From Asanoa siamensis (GTDB lineage: Bacteria > Actinomycetota > Actinomycetes > Mycobacteriales > Micromonosporaceae): a stretch of DNA of 64,000 nt. The notes under the pieces were generated by a model, which was not told the DNA's origin, made no database searches, and worked only from the letters and a program-made list of their open reading frames with translations. The translations under genes were made by a program, and so were the position numbers. Location: NCBI RefSeq assembly GCF_016862555.1, contig NZ_BONE01000027.1, positions 1 to 64,000 of the forward strand, read 5' to 3'. Position 1 is the first letter of the stretch. The number at the start of each line of letters is the position of its first letter. This document shows, piece after piece, positions 54,698-64,000 of the stretch.

Positions 54698-54771
54698 GCC
54701 GCCTTAGCTCAGTCGGTCAGAGCGACGCACTCGTAATGCGTAGGTCGACGGTTCGATTCCGTCAGGCGGCT
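54698..54771 (+). tRNA. tRNA-Thr (CGT)
   Basis: A complete cloverleaf: 7-bp acceptor stem (GCCGCCT/AGGCGGC), GCTC/GAGC D stem, anticodon stem ACGCA/TGCGT with loop CTCGTAA (anticodon CGT, reads ACG), and T stem GACGG/CCGTC with TTCGATT. CCA is not encoded. An integrase gene begins its 3' end 158 bp downstream, so the 3' half of this tRNA is the likely attachment site. Confidence 0.97.
54735..54771 (+). other. Probable element attachment site (attL) in the tRNA 3' half
   Basis: Inferred from the position of the tyrosine integrase beside the tRNA. The matching direct repeat would be at the far end of the element, outside this window, so the exact core cannot be read. Confidence 0.5.
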
Positions 54772-54777
54772 CACGAA

Positions 54778-54929: not shown

Positions 54930-56147
54930 CTAGGCCGCTCGCCGTCTCCCGCGGTCTCGGCGGTCTAGGGCGTCAGTCGGCCGGTCCGCGCCGAGTCGCT
55001 CAAGTATCTGCGAGCTGTCCGGTGCGAGAGCGGGTTTGACGATGTAGTGCTTCTTGGTGATCTCCTTGCTTGCATGCCCGAGCTGGGCGGCGGCGCTGTC
55101 GGCGTCGGCCTCACTGTCGATAAGGGTGGCGACGGTCTTGCGGAAAGTGTGTGGCGTTACCCATTCGAGACCTGTGTCAGTGCGCGCCTGACGCCACTGC
55201 CGGCGGACGTTCTGTGGCGACAGCCACGTGCCACGTCGCGATGCGAAGATGGCGTCATTGAGGTTGCTGGCGGCGGTGACCTTGCGCGCCATGAGCATCG
55301 CCACGGCAAACTGGGGCAGAAAAATGGTCCGGAAGCCGGCGTCGGACTTGGTCCAGTCCTGGCGAAAGAAGCCCTTGCTTTTGAGGTAGACGATTGTGCC
55401 GCTGATAGTGAGGGTCGGGCGTTGGGCGGCGAGATCTATGTCCTGCCACCGCACGGCCAGAACCTCACCGATGCGGGCGCCGGTGGCGAGCAGCAGATCG
55501 ATGATGTCAGCTAGGTCGCCGGTTGGCCGGGGCCCGGACTTCCCTAGCGTGGGTTGCTGCCAGTTCCGGATGGCGGAGCGGACGCTTTCGAGTTGCTCGT
55601 GTTTGAGGGCTACCACATTTTTGCGCGGGTTAGGTAGCCGGCTGGTCTCGCGCACTGGGTTGGTCGTCAACGCGCCACGGCGTACTGCCAGAGCGAACAT
55701 CTGACCAAGGACGACCTTGGCTCCCCTGGCTGCTGATGGACGGTCAACGGCGACTTTGCGGAGGAACTTATCGATACGCCCTGCGCCGGCCTCGCGAATG
55801 CGGAGCAGGCCGAGCGCAGGGACGATCGATACGCGCACGCTGATTTCGTACCGGCTGATGGTTTGTGGCGACACCCGCTCCTCCGCCACGATCTCGGCCA
55901 GCCAGATCGTGGCGAGTGTGCTGACGTGTGTCTCCCTGGTGATCTCGTCGTCGTTAGGGGTTACCCGGTCTCGTAGTTTGATCTTGAGCGCGCGGATGGC
56001 GGCTGGGCCCGTGGTATCTGTGGCCTCGACGTCGCGCGTTTTGCCATCGTGGTCGCGGTATCGGGCTCGGGCGCAGTGCCGGTTGGGTCCGAGTTGCTTG
56101 GTGCGGATGTTGCCCCAGGTGCCGATCGGGAGCGGTGGTCGGGCCAT
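54930..56147 (-). CDS. int: Tyrosine site-specific integrase
   Basis: A 405-residue phage-type recombinase with an N-terminal AP2-like arm-binding region, a SAM-like core-binding domain (residues about 75-160) and a catalytic domain. Catalytic residues are visible: Arg in LLATGARIGEVLAVRW, His-x-x-Arg in TPHTFRKTVATL, and His plus Tyr in LGHASKEITKKHYI. It would insert and, with Xis, excise the element at tRNA-Thr. It is the last gene of the minus-strand set, three bases after xis. Confidence 0.95.
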   Translation of the reverse strand: MARPPLPIGTWGNIRTKQLGPNRHCARARYRDHDGKTRDVEATDTTGPAAIRALKIKLRDRVTPNDDEITRETHVSTLATIWLAEIVAEERVSPQTISRYEISVRVSIVPALGLLRIREAGAGRIDKFLRKVAVDRPSAARGAKVVLGQMFALAVRRGALTTNPVRETSRLPNPRKNVVALKHEQLESVRSAIRNWQQPTLGKSGPRPTGDLADIIDLLLATGARIGEVLAVRWQDIDLAAQRPTLTISGTIVYLKSKGFFRQDWTKSDAGFRTIFLPQFAVAMLMARKVTAASNLNDAIFASRRGTWLSPQNVRRQWRQARTDTGLEWVTPHTFRKTVATLIDSEADADSAAAQLGHASKEITKKHYIVKPALAPDSSQILERLGADRPTDALDRRDRGRRRAA

Positions 56148-56150
56148 GGT

Positions 56151-56363
56151 TCAGCGCTCCGGGTCGGTCTGGGTGTCGAGCCAGTGTTCGACCTCGCTGC
56201 GCCGGTAGCGCAGGGTGTTGCCGACTCGGATGGCGCGGGGTCCTTTGCCTCGGCTGTGCCAGGCGTAGAGGGTGTTCTTCGGCTTGCCGAGCCAGGCTGC
56301 GACATCATCGATGGTCAGGAGCGGGTCGGGCCGCCATTCTGCGGCGGTGGTCGGCGTGGTCAT
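56151..56363 (-). CDS. xis: Excisionase-type MerR/AlpA-like HTH protein
   Basis: A 70-residue protein with LLTIDDVAAWLGKPKNTLYA, a winged HTH_17 domain typical of small excisionases, then RVGNTLRYRRSEVEHWLD. ATG 56363 overlaps the stop of the preceding small ORF as ATGA. It directs recombination toward excision and may also regulate. Confidence 0.85.
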   Translation of the reverse strand: MTTPTTAAEWRPDPLLTIDDVAAWLGKPKNTLYAWHSRGKGPRAIRVGNTLRYRRSEVEHWLDTQTDPER

Positions 56364-56803
56364 CGCTGGCCTGCCGCATCGGACGGGCCTGCCTGCGGGG
56401 TTGCGTCGGGGTCGGCAAACGGCCGGTTGTCGTTCGTCCCGGACCCCGGCGTGGGGCGTAGGTAGGGCGGGCACGGATCGGGTGTCCTTTCAGCGTCCCG
56501 GCCCGGGTGGGCCGGGTGTCCGGTGGCGCTACCGCCCGCGTTCGCGCGGGGCGCCGGTTGTGGACGTCGATCCATGCGTAAGGGGGTGGAGTGATCAAGC
56601 CGGCTGGGGGGCGCGACGCCGCGCCGTCGGGGCTGAGGGACGCAGTCGGCGAGAACCCGGATGGACCCGTCGATCAGCTCGTCGTGCCCGGGGCAGGTGA
56701 GGTTCTGGGTACCACATGCCTTTTCTCGGCCCGCGTCGCGTGTTTCAGCCGGGACTCGGATGGGCGGTGTTGTGCACCTGATCTTTCCGGCCGGCCTAGG
56801 CAT
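56360..56803 (-). CDS. Hypothetical coupled ORF between methyltransferase and xis
   Basis: A 147-codon frame whose ATG lies inside the end of the methyltransferase gene (overlap 8 bp) and whose stop overlaps the xis ATG. That exact fit argues for a real gene. The N-terminal 60 residues contain three cysteines (RCTTPP, CGTQNLTCPGHD) and a possible zinc-knuckle. The rest is Pro/Arg/Ala-rich and disordered. Composition is poor evidence for coding, so confidence is moderate. Confidence 0.5.
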   Translation of the reverse strand: MPRPAGKIRCTTPPIRVPAETRDAGREKACGTQNLTCPGHDELIDGSIRVLADCVPQPRRRGVAPPSRLDHSTPLRMDRRPQPAPRANAGGSATGHPAHPGRDAERTPDPCPPYLRPTPGSGTNDNRPFADPDATPQAGPSDAAGQR

Positions 56804-57866
56804 GTGCGGCCGTGCCGGGCTCGGGCCGGTTGAGGTGACCGTGCAGTCGATGTTCGGCGATCCTTGCGTACTTCGCGCTCAAGTCGATGCCGATGTACTG
56901 GCGTCCGAGTTGGAGTGCGGCGATCCCGGTGGTGGCGGCGCCGCTGAACGGGTCGAGGACGGTGCCGCCTGGGCGGCATCCGGACGCGATGCACCGCAAC
57001 GGGATCTCGATCGGGTAGGCGGCGAAGTGCGCCTCGCGAAGCGGTCGGGTCGGGAACGCCCAGACGTCGCCGGGGTTTTTGCCCGGCGTTCTGCTCGGGT
57101 CGTGACCTCGTGTGCTGCCGGTTGCGGAACGGCGACGCCGGTCGTGGGGATATTTGACCGGGATGCGGATGGCGTCGAGGTCGAAGAAGTAGCGCTGGCC
57201 GCGGGTGAAGAGGAAGACCATCTCGTACGTGGTGGTAAGGCGATCCCGGACGGGCGAGGGCTGTGCGTTGGTCTTCGCCCAGACCGCCGCATTCCTCAAG
57301 ATCCAGCCTTGGGTTTGGAGGGCGAGAGCGACGCGCCAGGGGATGCCAACGAGGTTCTTCGCCGTGAGGCCAGAGACGGCGCCAGGTGACCACTGCCGCC
57401 GCTGGTAGCTGCCCCGGATGATGCTGTTCGGGCCGTGCGGCCGGGCGTTGCGGCCGCCGGTGCCGGCGTAGGAGTCGCCGAGGTTGAGCCACAGCGTGCC
57501 CTGCGGGTGCAGAACGCGGCGGGCCTGGTCGAACACCCCCACGAGGTGGTCGACGTACTCGCTGACGGTCGCCTCCTGGCCGTATTGACCGTCGACCCAC
57601 GTCGCTCCGCAGGCCGGGCACGAGCGCGGCTGAGCCGCCGTCGTCGGATCCGAAGCGGCCGTGTGACCGCAGCCGCTGCGACCACCGCACCACTGCCCGG
57701 TGTCGTAGGAGCGCAGCCCCCAGTACGGCGGAGACGTCACGATGCAGTCCACGGACGCGTCCGACATGTTGGCGAGTACGTCTCGAGCGTCGCCGGTGTA
57801 GAGCGTGACTGGCCCTGACGACCAAGTCGAATGGGCGTCTGGGACCTTCGGCTGACGGCCGGTCAT
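56796..57866 (-). CDS. Site-specific DNA methyltransferase (beta-type order) with zinc ribbon
   Basis: A 356-residue N4-cytosine/N6-adenine methyltransferase. Catalytic motif IV TSPPYWG is at residues 44-50, followed by a Cys-rich ribbon (WCGGRSGCGH and SCPACGATW). Motif I DPFSGAATTGIAAL lies near the C-terminus. The order IV before I is that of class beta. It is common in phage and mobile elements. No restriction nuclease is near, so it is probably an orphan that protects or marks the element. ATG 57866 overlaps the preceding stop. Confidence 0.92.
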   Translation of the reverse strand: MTGRQPKVPDAHSTWSSGPVTLYTGDARDVLANMSDASVDCIVTSPPYWGLRSYDTGQWCGGRSGCGHTAASDPTTAAQPRSCPACGATWVDGQYGQEATVSEYVDHLVGVFDQARRVLHPQGTLWLNLGDSYAGTGGRNARPHGPNSIIRGSYQRRQWSPGAVSGLTAKNLVGIPWRVALALQTQGWILRNAAVWAKTNAQPSPVRDRLTTTYEMVFLFTRGQRYFFDLDAIRIPVKYPHDRRRRSATGSTRGHDPSRTPGKNPGDVWAFPTRPLREAHFAAYPIEIPLRCIASGCRPGGTVLDPFSGAATTGIAALQLGRQYIGIDLSAKYARIAEHRLHGHLNRPEPGTAAHA

Positions 57867-58888
57867 GCCACACCTCTAGCGGCGGGCCCACCGGATGAGA
57901 CCTCGACCAGCGGTGGGAGTGTCGGGAGCTGATCTTCGTGAGGACTTCGCACCGTCGCACGTGGACGCTCGGGTTCACCGAAACTCGCGGCGAACTTCGG
58001 TGCCCGGAGGATCACCGCGTCTTCGTGCTGTACGAGCCATTGCGGGTCGCCGGCGGCGATGGCTTCGCCGACGTTCTTCTGCTGGAAGAAGGAGGCGCGT
58101 CGTATCGCCTGGCCGTTGTGGACGGCGCAGATGAGCGCGATGCAGTTCTCGACGAGGTGGAAACCGGCGTGGATGCCGGCGGCCTCAGCCATGCCGGGGA
58201 TGTCGATGAGTTCGCCGTCGCGGCGGTACGGGCGCGCGGTGATGAGGAGGTGCCCGCCGGGCCGCAGCAGGCCCATGGAGGCGGTGAGGATTTCGGTGAA
58301 GCCGGCCGCGAGCTCGCCGTGGCTGCGGTGGGCGAGGTTGTCGGGATCGCGGCCGTAGCTGTCGTGGATCCTGTGAACTTTGCCCTTCGTGCGGCCGGGG
58401 GTGACGGAACGGCCGTGCACTGAGGCGCCGTAGGGGGGCGAGGTGATGATGAGGGCGGCTTGCCCTTGGACGTTGTCGGGCAGGACGGGCAGGACCCGGC
58501 GGGCGTCTCCGGCGTAGATGTTGCCGCGCCCGGTGGCGCCGTGACGTTCGGCGAGGCGGATGTTCGCGGCGGCGAGGTCAGCCCACCGGGGCTCGTATTC
58601 GATGCCGATGCCGTGTCGGCCGAGGTGCATGGCCTCGACCACGGTGGTGCCGATGCCGGCCATCGGGTCCAGCACGATGTCGCCGGGTGAGGTGTAGGTG
58701 TGGATGGCGTAGCGACTGATCGTTGGCAGCATTTTGCCGGGGTGCTTGATGGCGTCCGGCATATAGCGGCCGGTGCGCAGTTGCCGGGAGGGCGTCTGTC
58801 CGGTCAGCCAGACCGAGCCGGGTGGAAGGTTCCCGGACGAGTCGTCGCTGTCGCTGGTGGCGGGCGTGGGCTGCTGGTGGTCAGCCAC
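57863..58888 (-). CDS. Second DNA methyltransferase (motif I first)
   Basis: A 341-residue methyltransferase. SAM-binding DPMAGIGTTVVEAM is at residues 74-87, followed by the catalytic TSPPYG at 149-154 and a TRD-like region after it. This order differs from its neighbour, so the two are not recent duplicates and probably recognise different sites. GTG 58888 has AAGGAGG upstream and overlaps the previous gene's stop by 8 bp. An orphan methyltransferase by context. Confidence 0.9.
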   Translation of the reverse strand: MADHQQPTPATSDSDDSSGNLPPGSVWLTGQTPSRQLRTGRYMPDAIKHPGKMLPTISRYAIHTYTSPGDIVLDPMAGIGTTVVEAMHLGRHGIGIEYEPRWADLAAANIRLAERHGATGRGNIYAGDARRVLPVLPDNVQGQAALIITSPPYGASVHGRSVTPGRTKGKVHRIHDSYGRDPDNLAHRSHGELAAGFTEILTASMGLLRPGGHLLITARPYRRDGELIDIPGMAEAAGIHAGFHLVENCIALICAVHNGQAIRRASFFQQKNVGEAIAAGDPQWLVQHEDAVILRAPKFAASFGEPERPRATVRSPHEDQLPTLPPLVEVSSGGPAARGVA

Positions 58889-59597
58889 GGTTGGCCTCCT
58901 TGCTTGGCGTCGTGGTGACGGCGAAGGCGAGCAGGTCCCGGTGGGTGACTCTGTGCCGGCCGCCGGGCAGGCTCATCGGGTGTGACAGCTCGCGACTCGG
59001 GTCGGTGCGGGGCTCCTGGTCGGGCAGTGGGGCCAGCACGATCGGCAGGTGCTGGTGGTAGAGGAACCCGGCCGCGCGGGCGGCGGTGATGACCGTGCTG
59101 CGCTCACTGATGGAGCCCGCGGCCGGCGGCCGGACGGTGAGCGCCACGAGAAGGAACCCGCCAGGGCGCAGCGTCGGCCGCCACTGCTGGAACGCGGCGA
59201 CCAGGCCGTGCAGGTCGGCGCTGTCGAGTCCGGGTCGGGGCAGCGGGGCCAGCAGCAGCGCGGCACGGTGGGCGGGCGCGGGAATGCGCTGCGGGTTGCC
59301 GGCGATCTCGCCCGTGGCCCGGTCCAGGTAGCCGCAGGCGGCGGCGATAGCCGGGTGCGCGTCGAGGGCGAGCACGGTGTCGCCGGGGCGGGTGTAGCGG
59401 CCGATCAGTTGCGCGACGCCCAGCGCGGAGAGGCCCTGCCAGTCGGGCAAGTCCGGCGAGGCTATCGGCGGCAGGCTGGCGCCGCGCGGTCCGGGGAGGA
59501 ACAACCCGATGGGTACCCGCTGCGCGCGGGCGTCCGGGTCGGTGTGGTGCGAGTGCGGCATCGGCGTGTGGGCCGCGTCCGCTGAAAGCGCTGACAC
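58881..59597 (-). CDS. Methyltransferase-like protein lacking a catalytic motif
   Basis: A 238-residue protein first in the minus-strand set. The SAM-fold pattern is RPGDTVLALDAHPAIAAACG, and a beta-strand/turn LRPGGFLLVALT matches the strand after motif IV. The expected (D/N/S)PPY is replaced by LLLAPLPRPGLD, so base methylation is not expected. It may be a partner subunit or regulator. GTG 59597 is placed five bases after a -10 box, so the message is probably leaderless. N-terminal residues are His/Pro-rich. Confidence 0.7.
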   Translation of the reverse strand: MSALSADAAHTPMPHSHHTDPDARAQRVPIGLFLPGPRGASLPPIASPDLPDWQGLSALGVAQLIGRYTRPGDTVLALDAHPAIAAACGYLDRATGEIAGNPQRIPAPAHRAALLLAPLPRPGLDSADLHGLVAAFQQWRPTLRPGGFLLVALTVRPPAAGSISERSTVITAARAAGFLYHQHLPIVLAPLPDQEPRTDPSRELSHPMSLPGGRHRVTHRDLLAFAVTTTPSKEANRG

Positions 59598-59602
59598 TTA
59601 GG

Positions 59603-59631
59603 GATACAGATTTCGGGGCTGTTTTGGACAA
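59603..59631 (-). promoter_or_regulatory. Promoter of the methyltransferase operon (leaderless)
   Basis: On the minus strand TTGTCC (59631-59626), a 17-bp spacer, then TGTATC (59608-59603), then five bases to the GTG at 59597. The same architecture and conserved spacer CCCCGAA occur at 61153-61181 before the transfer genes. Confidence 0.7.
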
Positions 59632-59764
59632 CGCGAGATCGGCCAGCCGTCGCGTGCCCGTCGAGACCCCGCCCCTCGGCAGCGCCTTGAACAAGATCGT
59701 TGGAGGGTTGAACACCCTGGTCAGCGCGGTCGGGCGTGCCTCGGGAGGAGACGCTGCGCGTGCT

Positions 59765-59788
59765 GTGGCCCCGGCGAAGCGGGGCCAC
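59765..59788. other. Perfect hairpin inside the iteron array
   Basis: GTGGCCCC, an 8-base loop, GGGGCCAC. It lies in the 85-bp gap between the second and third iterons. Confidence 0.6.
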
Positions 59789-59961
59789 TCCCTTGAACAA
59801 GATCGCTATTCCGGCGGTGGGCCTTGAACAAGGTCACTTCAGAGCTTGAACAAGATCAGCGCGGTGGTTGAACAAGATCGCATGGCGGGCCGCGCCGCCT
59901 TGAACACGGGCCGCGCGGCCTTGAACAAGCCGCAGGAGGGTTGAACACGATCTCGGCTCAA

Positions 59962-60006
59962 GGTGTCCCGCTCGCGGCTGGTCGGTGCCAGTAGGCGCGG
60001 GACACC
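59962..60006. other. Second perfect hairpin inside the iteron array
   Basis: GGTGTCCCGC and GCGGGACACC arms (59962-59971, 59997-60006) with an inner CTGG/CCAG stem. It occupies the gap between the ninth forward iteron and the first reverse one. A candidate nick or origin hairpin. Confidence 0.6.
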
Positions 60007-60225
60007 ACATCGATGTTCAACCTCGCCGCAGGGTGGTGCCGGCTATCGCCTCGGCGGTGGAGGCGCTCGGCTTGAACACGCACGCCGCCGGGTTGAACAG
60101 CAACGCACGACGTGAGTCTCCGGAGGGTTGACCTCGGACGCGTCGACGTGGTTGGCAGGGCGCAGCGCCGAGGTTGTTCAACCCCCCGCTTGGCCGATCT
60201 TGTTCATGGTCTGTTCAACCGAGGT

Positions 60226-60248
60226 GGCGGGATGGATGACGTCCCGCC
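60226..60248. promoter_or_regulatory. Inverted repeat upstream of the sigma-like gene
   Basis: GGCGGGA, a 9-base spacer, TCCCGCC, 55 bp upstream of the start at 60303. It could be an operator. Confidence 0.35.
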
Positions 60249-60302
60249 GGACGGCCCCCGTCGGTCGCCGGCACTCCATCGCCCACCTTCGGGGGATTCC
60301 TC

Positions 60303-61133
60303 ATGCCTGAGCGCATTCGCTCGACCATGCCCGCCGCCGGATCGCCGGTATCGCCGATCGTGCGTGGTGACGCGCCGCTGGACGTCGCGGAGACCACGTT
60401 CCGGCTGCTCACGGCCGGGCCGGAGCCGCTGTCCATCGACGGTGCCGAGATCGGCCACGGCCTACCGGCCCGGCGGATCCCGTTGCACGAGCTGGCCGCG
60501 ATCCTGATGCACCCGTCATGCAGCTACCGCGCGAGCGACACGGTGTGGCGGCTGCTGATCGAGCGTGCCCGCACGAGCGGCCCGGCCTGGGTGGTCGGTG
60601 CCGCGGGTGTGGCTCTGCCGGGCCTGCGCGCCGCCGCTCGGCGGCTGTCCCGTGTCCACAGCGGCGATGTGCAGGCCGAGGTGCTGACCGGCTTCCTGGC
60701 TGCGTTGCGGCAGGTCAGGCCCGCCGGCCCGCGAGTCGTGCAGCGGCTGTGCAGCGCCGCCCTGGTGACCGCCCGCGCGGCGCTGCGGGCCAGCGAGCCG
60801 CGCCGCGCCGACGTGACCGGCAATGCGCCCGGCTCCGCGCCGCCGCCGGCACCGTCCGGGCACCCGGATTTCGTCCTGGCCTGCGCGGTCACAGCCGGTG
60901 TCATCACCGCCGCCGAGGCCGACTTGATCGGCGCCACTCGGCTGGAGGACACGTCGGTCGCTGAATACGCCCACCGCCACGGCAAGACCTACTGGGCGGT
61001 CTCCAAGGCCCGCGCTCGCGCCGAGGAGCGCCTCGTCGCGGCGATCCAGTCCGGGGCTTTGACCGACACCGACACAGCCGTGATCAGCGAAGCCACGACG
61101 ACCCCCGGGGCGGACCAGCCACAACGCGTCTGA
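60303..61133 (+). CDS. Sigma-like HTH protein of the element
   Basis: A 276-residue protein. Residues about 60-150 are helical with a sigma region-2-like look. After a Pro/Ala linker (about 175-188) the C-terminal half has LEDTSVAEYAHRHGKTYWAV and SKARARAEERLVAAI, an HTH like sigma region 4. GGGGGA lies upstream of ATG 60303. It sits immediately beside the iteron array and could bind it or control the transfer genes; this is inference. No replication-initiator motifs are seen. Confidence 0.65.
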   Translation: MPERIRSTMPAAGSPVSPIVRGDAPLDVAETTFRLLTAGPEPLSIDGAEIGHGLPARRIPLHELAAILMHPSCSYRASDTVWRLLIERARTSGPAWVVGAAGVALPGLRAAARRLSRVHSGDVQAEVLTGFLAALRQVRPAGPRVVQRLCSAALVTARAALRASEPRRADVTGNAPGSAPPPAPSGHPDFVLACAVTAGVITAAEADLIGATRLEDTSVAEYAHRHGKTYWAVSKARARAEERLVAAIQSGALTDTDTAVISEATTTPGADQPQRV

Positions 61134-61152
61134 GCTGCTCTTTCCCGGCCAG

Positions 61153-61181
61153 ATGTCCAAGACGGGCCCCGAATCTGTATC
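61153..61181 (+). promoter_or_regulatory. Promoter of the transfer operon
   Basis: ATGTCC (61153-61158), a 17-bp spacer containing CCCCGAA, and TGTATC (61176-61181), then five bases to a GTG at 61187. It matches the methyltransferase-operon promoter in layout and sequence. Confidence 0.7.
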
Positions 61182-61186
61182 TCCAA

Positions 61187-61225
61187 GTGCGGGACTTTCT
61201 CCGCGCCGGTGACCCACCGACCTGA
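61187..61225 (+). CDS. Possible 12-codon leaderless leader peptide
   Basis: GTG 61187 to TGA 61223-61225 encodes VRDFLRAGDPPT. Its position relative to the promoter is identical to that of the methyltransferase-like gene start. It may be a regulatory leader upstream of the pilin gene, 204 bp further on. The rest of 61134-61428 shows no convincing gene. Confidence 0.35.
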   Translation: MRDFLRAGDPPT

Positions 61226-61428
61226 TCCGCTGACGGCGCTGACACTCCGTACGGTCCTGGCCCCCATCGCCTTTCTGGTGAGGAGGACGGCCGCGTTGGT
61301 CGGCAGAGGTCACCTCTCGCGCATCGTCCCTGGTCCCGCCTTCGCCGAGCGACAACGCGCGCCAGCCCCCGGCAGAGCCCTGTGCAAGGGGCGGCCCGGG
61401 GGAGTGCCGCACCGGAGGTGCCCAGTCC

Positions 61429-61872
61429 ATGAGATCCGTTTGGTCTGCCCGTCACGAGGCGGCCGATCGCCGCCGCCTCGCGACCGAGCGACACGGTCGG
61501 CCCATCGGGTCTGACCAGCGTCGATACCCGCGTCGCCCGGCCCGCGCCGGGTCCGCAGCCGTACTCGGTACCGCCGCGGTGGCGCTGGCGGTCGTCGCCA
61601 CGCCGCACGCCGCCTACGCGGCCGAGCCCGCCCCGGTGATGCTGGCCGTCGATTCGATCGCAGAAGTTGTCGGCAACATCCGCATCTGGATGATGGGGAT
61701 CCTCGCCGCCTGGGCGACGCTGTGCCTGACGGTGGGGTTCTTCCGCTACACCAGTGGTGAACCCGGCGAGGTCGAGAAGGGCAAGTTGGCGCTTCGCAGC
61801 GCCGCGATCGGCTACGCCGGTGCCCTGCTCGCGCCGTTGCTGCTCACCATCGTCGGCGAGTGGGTGGCGTGA
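61429..61872 (+). CDS. VirB2/TrbC-like conjugative pilin
   Basis: A 147-residue protein. The N-terminal leader is basic with signal core AGSAAVLGTAAVALAVVATP ending AYAAEP. The mature part has two membrane helices (IRIWMMGILAAWATLCLTVG and IGYAGALLAPLLLTIVGEWV) joined by a short charged loop, the VirB2-type layout. GGAGG lies ten bases before ATG 61429. Its stop overlaps the next gene (TGATG). Confidence 0.75.
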   Translation: MRSVWSARHEAADRRRLATERHGRPIGSDQRRYPRRPARAGSAAVLGTAAVALAVVATPHAAYAAEPAPVMLAVDSIAEVVGNIRIWMMGILAAWATLCLTVGFFRYTSGEPGEVEKGKLALRSAAIGYAGALLAPLLLTIVGEWVA

Positions 61873-64000
61873 TGGCCGCCCGCTCACCGCGACCACGCCG
61901 GCCGTCCCGGCGCGCGGCTCCGCTGCTGCTGTTGGGTATCGCGGTCTGTGCTGGTCTGGCCCTGCTGTGGGTCGGGCCAGCGCTGGCCGACCCGAGCCCG
62001 GCTCCCGGCCCGGCGCCGACCGCGCCCGGCGCCCCGACGACCGAGCCGGGCGTGCCGGACCCGGGCTCGCGACCGCCCGCGCTGGACCCGGCGCCGTCCA
62101 CGCCCGCGACCGGGACACCGGCCCCCATCCCGCAACCGACACCCAGAACCCCGAGCCCATCGGGCCTGGACGACGATCCGGCCTGGTACGACGTCGGCGG
62201 TCAGATCCGCAAGGCCGTCGTGGACCTCGTCGTGTGGGCCGCTGACCAAGCATTGCAGCCCGTGATCGAAGCCCTGGGTGAGTCGTGGCTGTCCACCCCG
62301 GACCTGACCGGCAACAACCAGGTCACGGCCATCTGGACGACGAGCCTGGTCGTCGCGAACGGGATCTTCATCCTGTTCATCGTCGCGGGCGGGTTCCTGG
62401 TCAGCTCGCGGGAGACCTTGCAAACCCGCTACGGGCTCAAGCAGGTCCTACCCCGCCTCGCCGTAGGCGTGGTGCTCGCCAATTGCAGCCTGATCCTCGC
62501 GCAGAAGGCGATCGAGGTGACCAACGCGCTCACCGTGGCCATCGCCGGCAACACGATCGACGGGCCGACCGCCGCGAGCGCGATCCGGCAGATCGTTGAC
62601 GAGGCCATGCGAGGCCACGCCTTCATGCTGGCGCTGCTGGTCATCGCCGTGATCGTGATGTGCCTGGTCCTCGAGTTCACGTTCGTGCTGCGGCTCGCGG
62701 CACTGATCGTGCTCATCGGCATCGCCCCGGCCGCGTTGATCTGCCACGCCAGCCCGCTGACCGAGAGCATCGCCCACACCTGGTGGCGTGCCTTCGCCGC
62801 ATGCCTCGGCATGCAGCTCGGTCAGGCGATCGTGGTCATGGCCACGGTGAAGGTCTTCCTCACCCCGACCGCACCGACCGTGCTCGGCTTGCCGACCGGC
62901 GACGGGCTGCTGTCCATCCTGGTCTGCCTCACCATGCTCTGGATCTTGATAAAGGTGCCGGGTTGGACGCGGCGGTTCGTCCTTGGTCCGCTCGGTCAGC
63001 GCGGCGGCCGGGGCATCATCGGCCAGCTCGTGCATACGTACCTGACGATCAAGACGCTGGGTGCGGCGACGGGGCTCATGCGCGGTGCCGGCGCGGCCCG
63101 AGCCGCCGGATCGGCGCGCGTGGCGGCGGGCGCACGGGCGACGACGCCCCGCTCGTCGGGTCCCCGCCGGTCCCCGCCCCACACCGGCGGAGCCCGCCTC
63201 GCCCGCTCGTCTCCGGCGCGTTCGTCCCCGGCCCGGCCGTCCCCGGTGGGACCGGCGCCGTTCAGTCATTTCCCGGCCGTGCACACGCCTCTGTCGTCCC
63301 CGTCCGGGACCAACGGCCCGCCGACGTTCAGTTCCCCGCCGACCCCGGCGGGAAGCTCCGCCCCGACAGGGAGCTCGCCCCCGTCCGCCAGCCTGCCGGC
63401 GGCACGGTTCTCCCACCCCTCGGCGGCCGAGCCGACTGCTGCGTCCCCGGCCGGCCTGGCGGCACGGGTCGCCTTCAGCGACGCCGGATCGGCCACGTCG
63501 AGTTCGGCGCCGCCGGGCCGTGCCGTGGCCGTCACGTTTTCGGCTGCGCCAACCGCGCATGGCGCTCCTCGGCGCCCACCGGCCCCGGTCGCGCCGGTGT
63601 TCTCCTCGGCACCGGGCGGTAGCTCTCGCGCCGTGACCCGCAGCGGCGCGATCCCCGCCAGCCGGCCCACAGCGGCGCGGCGGGCCAGCGCTGCCGGGCG
63701 AGCAGCCGCTGGCAAAAGGACACCGGCCAGCCCGCCGCCCGCCCGGACGGCCCCGGCCCGGGCGTCACGGGCCGCGCCAGCGGCACGCACGACCACGGCC
63801 GTCCCGTCGCCCGCGCCCGCACGACGGGCGCCGACCCCATCCCGGTCCGGCCTACCGTCCCCACCGACCGGGATGAGCGGACCGTCCCCGGCGATGCCTG
63901 CGGCACCGGCGGTCCGCCCCGCTGCTCCCGGCTCGTCCCGGTCGCCTTCGCGGATTCCGCCGTCCCCGGCACCAACCCGGGCGTCCGGGTCGCGGACGTC
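61872..64000 (+). CDS. VirB6/TrbL-like conjugation channel protein (3' end outside window)
   Basis: The frame is open from ATG 61872 to the window edge, about 709 codons. A signal-like leader (APLLLLGIAVCAGLALLWVG to ALADP) and a Pro-rich linker (about residues 40-100) precede about six membrane helices between residues 155 and 375, e.g. SLVVANGIFILFIVAGGFLV, LRLAALIVLIGIAPAALIC and ILVCLTMLWILIKV. A PGWTRRF segment follows, typical of actinobacterial TrbL. From about residue 410 the protein is a long Ser/Pro/Ala/Arg-rich tail. It is translationally coupled to the VirB2-like gene. Together they mark a type IV secretion operon. Confidence 0.85.
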   Translation, partial: MAARSPRPRRPSRRAAPLLLLGIAVCAGLALLWVGPALADPSPAPGPAPTAPGAPTTEPGVPDPGSRPPALDPAPSTPATGTPAPIPQPTPRTPSPSGLDDDPAWYDVGGQIRKAVVDLVVWAADQALQPVIEALGESWLSTPDLTGNNQVTAIWTTSLVVANGIFILFIVAGGFLVSSRETLQTRYGLKQVLPRLAVGVVLANCSLILAQKAIEVTNALTVAIAGNTIDGPTAASAIRQIVDEAMRGHAFMLALLVIAVIVMCLVLEFTFVLRLAALIVLIGIAPAALICHASPLTESIAHTWWRAFAACLGMQLGQAIVVMATVKVFLTPTAPTVLGLPTGDGLLSILVCLTMLWILIKVPGWTRRFVLGPLGQRGGRGIIGQLVHTYLTIKTLGAATGLMRGAGAARAAGSARVAAGARATTPRSSGPRRSPPHTGGARLARSSPARSSPARPSPVGPAPFSHFPAVHTPLSSPSGTNGPPTFSSPPTPAGSSAPTGSSPPSASLPAARFSHPSAAEPTAASPAGLAARVAFSDAGSATSSSAPPGRAVAVTFSAAPTAHGAPRRPPAPVAPVFSSAPGGSSRAVTRSGAIPASRPTAARRASAAGRAAAGKRTPASPPPARTAPARASRAAPAARTTTAVPSPAPARRAPTPSRSGLPSPPTGMSGPSPAMPAAPAVRPAAPGSSRSPSRIPPSPAPTRASGSRT

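Follow-up and report, generated by a model that had tools for sequence, protein, structure and literature searches.

In the integrative conjugative elements (ICEs) and IncC plasmids controlled by SetCD or AcaCD, satellites are known, namely the mobilizable genomic islands (MGIs) and Salmonella genomic island 1 (SGI1). ICEs of actinobacteria that carry a type IV secretion system (T4SS) are, to our knowledge, little studied. Here we analyze part of one in a stretch of 64,000 nucleotides of Asanoa siamensis (contig NZ_BONE01000027.1, positions 1 to 64,000; hereafter the window), in which an array of TTGAACA-type repeats (iterons) occupies both strands of 59687..60218 between two operons that are both transcribed away from it. 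Judged by its gene content, the array sits in a T4SS-type ICE family of Micromonosporaceae. We propose that it probably serves as a cooperative operator, of either sign, gating the gene of a sigma-like transfer activator (60303..61133, forward strand; hereafter 60303) together with an excision/protection operon. This reading is the best one because it explains the position, spacing and modularity of the array as well as the content of a set of mini-elements. The outcome is a testable map of one ICE family, comprising the control region, the sigma-like activator, two putative regulon promoters, a MOBC-type candidate for the origin of transfer (oriT) and satellite-like elements.

As in the SetCD/AcaCD systems, promoters of the helper's activator and oriT-like sites appear to have been copied by small mobilizable elements. 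The present ICE differs in having a sigma-like protein, an iteron array, a Gram-positive T4SS and a MOBC relaxase, and no FlhCD-type activator was found among its scanned proteins. The array also resembles iteron-regulated plasmid origins in its cooperative-looking, helically spaced direct and inverted repeats of lineage-specific sequence, but no adjacent initiator gene was found, a sigma-like gene stands there instead, and the modules are separable. With the actinobacterial AICEs (TraB/clt systems, as described in PMC3218068) it shares integration at tRNA genes; however, the presence of a pilin, PrgI, VirB4 and a coupling-protein-like ATPase marks it as a T4SS-type element and not an AICE with a single FtsK/TraB translocase. 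Finally, PMC12857230 describes the MOBC relaxase TraX of pAD1, whose N-terminus forms a winged helix and whose binding site, a set of five direct repeats, lies about 70-120 bp away from nic. The PF13814 relaxase of the present ICE likewise has such a helix at its N-terminus, and direct repeats are here separated from a conserved site by roughly 80-120 bp, but this layout is matched by a junction at 69.6 kb and not by the array.

The array is real and lies far above chance expectation. A preliminary description of the window had counted fifteen repeats, eleven forward and four reverse, and the exact positions bear this out: fourteen exact TTGAACA and one copy with one mismatch, the forward ones at 59687, 59708, 59793, 59824, 59846, 59868, 59900, 59921, 59941, 60072 and 60093, the exact reverse ones at 60014, 60175 and 60212, and the one-mismatch copy (ATGAACAAGATC) at 60201, also reverse. 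The longer extension claimed for several repeats exists in four copies, which form the full TTGAACAAGATC, a sequence with no other exact occurrence in the 8.78-Mb genome (backwards control, 0). Only two of the 16 exact TTGAACA in the window fall outside the array, and 100 shuffles gave a mean of 0.94 and a maximum of 5. The forward spacings listed earlier are correct, except that the 131-bp step from 59941 to 60072 was omitted. By sequence comparison, a left module (59687..59799, forward) comprises a pair 21 bp apart and a third copy; it is followed by a middle forward block (59793..59947) with spacings of 31, 22, 22, 32, 21 and 20 bp. To the right, the inverted iteron at 60014 and the forward pair at 60072 and 60093 (60014..60099) occupy similar positions relative to the 60303 start in relatives, and the last inverted iterons (60175..60218, reverse strand) include the mismatched copy and end with two sites 11 bp apart. 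A GGCGGGA/TCCCGCC inverted repeat (60226..60248, forward) adjoins the last iteron within a block conserved among relatives. A literature search for the array repeat sequence found no paper.

The claim that most copies lie on one face of the helix holds in part. Nine of the 11 forward copies are within 3 bp of one face at a period of 10.5 bp, whereas the phasing test on all 11 is only suggestive (R 0.46, P 0.09). Across 59 upstream regions (58 relatives plus the window), same-strand neighbors up to 70 bp apart gave 113 spacings, 68 of them at 20-23 bp, 14 at 31-33 bp and 8 at 11 bp. The pooled R of 0.78 at 10.5 bp is nearly equaled at 11 bp (0.76) and 10 bp (0.75), and for this reason, and because the sequences are related, the statistic is descriptive; a turn-like iteron spacing looks like a habit of this ICE family.

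Counterparts of the array lie upstream of 60303 homologues, with at least three exact TTGAACA in the 700 bp upstream in 42 of the 59 regions, window included. Absence of the repeats from related elements had been named as grounds for abandoning the idea, and they are present. They recur at about -68 (reverse), -96, -117, -208, -255 (reverse) and -340 to -430 from the 60303 start, and a pair lies near -520/-540 in clade B and similarly in clade A. The homologues themselves were found in 196 of 354 family genomes and, by profile, in 63 of 394 class genomes (a sample that includes a few of the family), and the relatives are placed in Micromonosporaceae, among them Actinoplanes, Micromonospora, Salinispora and Virgisporangium; loci are designated below by L numbers. 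A test for over-repeated 7-mers was significant at 0.01 in 49 of 85 upstream regions versus 1 of 89 control windows, which were coding and not intergenic (L219, being short, was omitted). The over-repeated 7-mer varies by lineage: GCCAACA in L166, GCTGGCA in L223 and ATGTCAC in L241, with seven TTGCACA in L161 and seven GTGAACA in L116. Taken one by one, the far-lineage repeats were significant in L166 and not in L162-L165, L167-L171 and L173, with P 0.07 in L215. A recurrent 39-42-bp element, TTGAACATTCAA...TTGAACA, was also seen in genomes G070, G082, G087, G121, G122, G124, G126, G128 and G129.

The product of 60303 (276 amino acids) has a sigma2- and sigma4-like fold in its predicted structure, and weak matches to Sigma70_r4 and Sigma70_r4_2 occur in 4 and 3 of 53 homologues, respectively; it looks like a divergent sigma-70-family protein and is our proposed transfer activator. 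A motif of about 30 bp is found both at the start of the leftward operon and in the gap preceding the pilin gene, and its two copies point in opposite directions. The leftward promoter-like motif, TGTCCAAAAC-N6-GAAATCTGTATC (59603..59630, reverse strand), is directly followed by the GTG start of the next gene, and the rightward one, TGTCCAAGAC-N7-CGAATCTGTATC (61154..61181, forward), stands ahead of the T4SS operon. In its 28-bp form, the motif occurs on the window's contig exactly twice, once per outer operon, and in none of 30 shuffles. Two copies were matched in 10 of 11 clade-A loci and one in L128, with a regular expression written from such copies. The clade-B version is TTTCCAATCC...GGATTTGTAATCCCC, for which a fixed expression found both copies in 6 of 23 loci, one in 13 and none in 4, and best-match alignment placed the pair in more clade-B loci than that. 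The conservation of the two motifs suggests that they act as promoters, which the 60303 product would read. The motif version differs between the clades, as does the sigma-like protein, and the two may be co-evolving. Although both clades have TTGAACA, the sigma4 helix of the 60303 product differs between them, which fits a promoter role. The earlier proposal that this product binds the iterons is not favored; as modeled, the protein more plausibly reads the two promoter-like motifs.

The distance between the array and the leftward motif points in the same direction as an operator reading. The gap was measured from the motif's upstream edge to the first exact iteron wherever such an iteron and a matched motif stand no more than 160 bp apart, which excludes L119, L121 and L151. 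Of 15 clade-B ICEs, 12 have a gap of 41-46 bp and the other three one of 64-66 bp; in clade-A relatives it is 54-57 or 75-77 bp in eight of nine and 64 bp in L123, and in the window it is 56 bp. The steps are near whole helical turns, yet a step of +21 means that the first member of the pair lost its exact match, so that the sole informative comparison is that of about 44 with about 56 bp. With exceptions, then, the helical distance between the sites and the promoter is constant, the promoter itself being deduced from conservation. Furthermore, the array is modular. In L128, L131, L134, L137 and L150, cargo of about 2-13 kb lies inside it, with the left iterons at the leftward end and the remainder beside 60303, and the counterpart of the left module stays with the leftward promoter-like motif both there and in the mini-elements. 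In L144 the cargo falls between the homologue of the gene ending at 59597 and the motif, so that motif and iterons are undivided. No exact left iteron is left in L122, L151 and L158.

Beyond the window and about 9 kb to the right of the array, the junction between the coupling-protein and relaxase genes holds a MOBC-type oriT candidate (contig C27 69593-69760; L005 15594-15761). In most clade-A and clade-B relatives, this junction carries [T/C]AACGA with a 12-bp period at -115, -103, -91 and -79 from the relaxase start, and the window's own junction has two [CT]AACGA. At the relaxase start lies a near-invariant 23-mer, GGACCGGAACCGACTGATAAGAG. With up to 2 mismatches allowed, it has 53 occurrences (41 of them exact), spread over 46 of 354 genomes (backwards control, 0). 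Since it partly encodes the relaxase N-terminus, selection on the protein may contribute to how well it is conserved in ICEs. With a GRARNRLN-type relaxase recognition helix (n = 27, window included), at least two [CT]AACGA were present at the junction in 25 loci, the others being L132 (none) and L135 (one). Where another residue follows RL (L118, L121, L154, L157, L130 and L153), [CT]AACGA was found in none of the six and CTCACGA in five, with neither in L153; one CTCACGA also occurs in three GRARNRLN loci, and neither repeat occurs in any number beside far-lineage relaxases. This contrast is not a formal test because the sequences are related, and it is indirect as a test of covariation, with a weak array in L132 and a slightly different helix in L130 too. 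PF13814 appears as the MobC relaxase superfamily in PMC5357655, and segment 69593-69760 shows the layout described for TraX: a conserved nic-like site stands at the relaxase gene, and the direct repeats are about 70-120 bp away from it. The segment is likely the transfer origin and fits the relaxase better than the array does.

Nine stretches without a 60303 homologue (L172, L174, L175 and L391-L396) contain parts of both systems. L172, L174 and L175 were met through their iterons and then found to have the junction segment, and L391-L396 were met through the 23-mer and then found to have iterons; the nine do not include one further occurrence of the 23-mer (G074:C1:4300313, 2 mismatches), which has no close 60303 homologue. 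No T4SS gene was found in the 10-20 kb of each, save PrgI fragments in L392 and L394. All nine carry the oriT-like junction segment, eight with the first 39-81 relaxase residues (L172 has none), and all nine have one to three iterons where the left module would be and lack the right part of the array. The leftward motif was matched in seven, in its clade-A form in L172 and its clade-B form in six; in L393 it was unmatched by the regular expression, and in L395 it is cut by the contig end. The motif-to-iteron gap is 43-44 bp in the six clade-B-form loci (L174 is listed twice, so that a tally of 7 satellites there stands for 6 distinct loci) and 21 bp in L172, which also keeps the second promoter motif. 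L172 carries int and xis, and a 35-bp repeat of the tRNA-Thr end marks both its boundaries, the copies lying 9,128 bp apart. The other mini-elements with sequence on that side have serine recombinases, and in the seven with such sequence the leftward motif faces recombinase genes. The serine-recombinase type sits at more than one place, since one flanking gene is common to L174, L391 and L395 and a different one to L393 and L394. Common ancestry of the mini-elements is likely, and they are probably satellites that answer the ICE regulators and borrow the ICE relaxase. Some may instead be deletion remnants, as some recombinase frames look broken.

Under the operator reading, an element-encoded DNA-binding protein would fill the helically spaced sites cooperatively. 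The left module would act on the leftward promoter, which serves the methylases and then Xis and Int, and the rest of the array would control 60303, whose product would then read both outward motifs; the leftward one would switch on protection and excision, and the rightward one the T4SS, coupling protein and MOBC relaxase. The effect of the array would be activation rather than repression. A candidate for the array binder is the winged-helix protein encoded at contig 71981-73225 (414 amino acids, MarR-type matches, three winged helices by reading). A search of 47 genomes found matches to it in 40; where a match and 60303 share a contig, the match lies about 11-15 kb downstream. A 180-residue relative (E 1.7e-12) is located directly upstream of five TTGAACA in L215, which belongs to another family and whose repeat is by itself not significant, at the P value given above. 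Among the helices compared, no clear correspondence to the repeat type emerged, which leaves the protein a candidate only. The methylases were rejected as binders because repeats of other kinds persist in far-lineage elements in which no methylase was detected, and Xis because L136, L146 and L117, without a detected Xis in the stretch covered, keep TTGAACA arrays.

Within the operator reading, and as a share of it, the bound protein could be a repressor under which the element stays silent. Mobile elements commonly have arrays of repressor sites at their divergent promoters, and the data fix the location and not the sign; however, in most loci with an intact pair the first sites do not overlap the motif but lie about 41-57 bp past its distal edge, and we consider this variant unlikely. 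For a cooperative protein the preliminary description had offered an origin of replication, a partition site or a transfer site, and what stands of this is a site for such a protein in the element's control region, present in related elements too. It is improbable that the array is an iteron replication origin (oriV), at which an element-encoded initiator would bind to replicate the excised circle. Direct repeats at 21 and 31 bp, inverted copies and a lineage-specific sequence are iteron-like, and AT-rich runs were seen by eye beside the repeats of the other-family relatives L223 and L236. On the other hand, none of the element proteins scanned matched a known initiator family (PF13814, despite its name of replication-relaxation, is listed as a MobC relaxase in PMC5357655), the lowest GC of any 50-bp stretch in the array is 0.48, cargo interrupts the array in five ICEs, and a plasmid collection held no record encoding a 60303 relative at E 1e-5. 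No direct support for a replication origin was found.

We also give little credence to the array as the relaxase-binding site of oriT, with nic in the adjoining conserved block. The five direct repeats bound by TraX are a precedent (PMC12857230), and the block does adjoin the last iteron. However, the array motif does not track the relaxase helix: L118, L121, L154 and L157 have a different one and keep TTGAACA arrays, whereas the 12-bp repeats before the relaxase gene follow helix type. Together with the mini-elements, which hold the junction segment without the right part of the array, this covariation disfavors a transfer site in the array. We further considered whether the block preceding 60303 might be an oriT with copies at other places and rejected this, as the two strong matches examined that are without a complete 60303 gene (L211 and L212) are truncated remnants, L211 having iterons and no 23-mer. 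That the array is a centromere-like partition site of the excised form is very improbable: helically spaced short-repeat arrays are found at plasmid centromeres, but no ParA/ParB pair lies beside the array among the proteins scanned (a subset of those of the element), and a near-fixed gap to a promoter-like motif would not be expected.

More generally, we suggest, with slightly less than even confidence, that conjugation in a widespread class of actinobacterial T4SS-ICEs is driven by a sigma-70-like factor of their own, with an iteron array of lineage-specific repeats gating its gene, and that satellites comprising little more than a serine recombinase operon, an iteron-linked promoter and a MOBC oriT parasitize the ICE by copying both switches. 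An element-encoded sigma factor as a conjugation switch was found neither in our literature search nor in the portion consulted of a review of Gram-positive conjugation control (PMC6540685), which is no proof of its absence from print.

The leftward operon, all on the reverse strand, reads from the array into a 238-residue protein (58881..59597) with a methyltransferase-like fold by eye only and no Pfam match, two N6_N4_Mtase DNA methylases (57863..58888 and 56796..57866), an Xis-like HTH_17 protein (56151..56474) and a tyrosine integrase (54930..56147). Beyond it lies tRNA-Thr(CGT) (54698..54772, forward), by analogy with L172 the probable attachment site; a second copy of that site was not found on the contig, which ends at 102,607. 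The 238-residue protein and its neighboring methylase are a conserved pair, a DNA methylase beside what looks by eye like a degenerate methyltransferase, and are possibly a two-subunit enzyme protecting DNA during transfer. Rightward, 60303 is followed on the forward strand by the T4SS pilin, the first gene of the transfer operon (61429..61872), and by a membrane protein without a Pfam match (61860..63998, running past the window end to contig 64022), which we take to be TrbL/VirB6-like. PrgI, VirB4, the coupling-protein-like ATPase and the Replic_Relax (PF13814) relaxase come next. No matches to the element were found in L178 and L179, and L177 and L180 were outside the analysis.

Between 60303 and the pilin gene, a strongly conserved non-coding leader (61182..61428, forward) has, by eye, a hairpin at its putative start and long inverted repeats, and may be structured. 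This T4SS-side gap was the most conserved of 12 script-called non-coding stretches (0.87 over 276 bp), on a scale that gives the region's genes 0.62-0.87; the block preceding 60303 has no score, as it falls inside an over-long open reading frame call. An Rfam search of 59500-61600 gave one match only, with E 0.34 and far below the gathering score. A structured RNA in the block before 60303 was rejected, since its alignment (L122 omitted) gave only four consensus pairs, one with a two-sided change, a weak covariation. In L138 (G326:C3), the segment from the array to 60303 is apparently inverted relative to the flanking genes, and the two inverted promoter-like motifs may be the ends of this inversion. 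Farther along the window's contig, at about 81-90.5 kb (L006), lies a cluster with a T2SSE-type ATPase and TadB/TadC/TadE-like neighbors, named mostly by reading.
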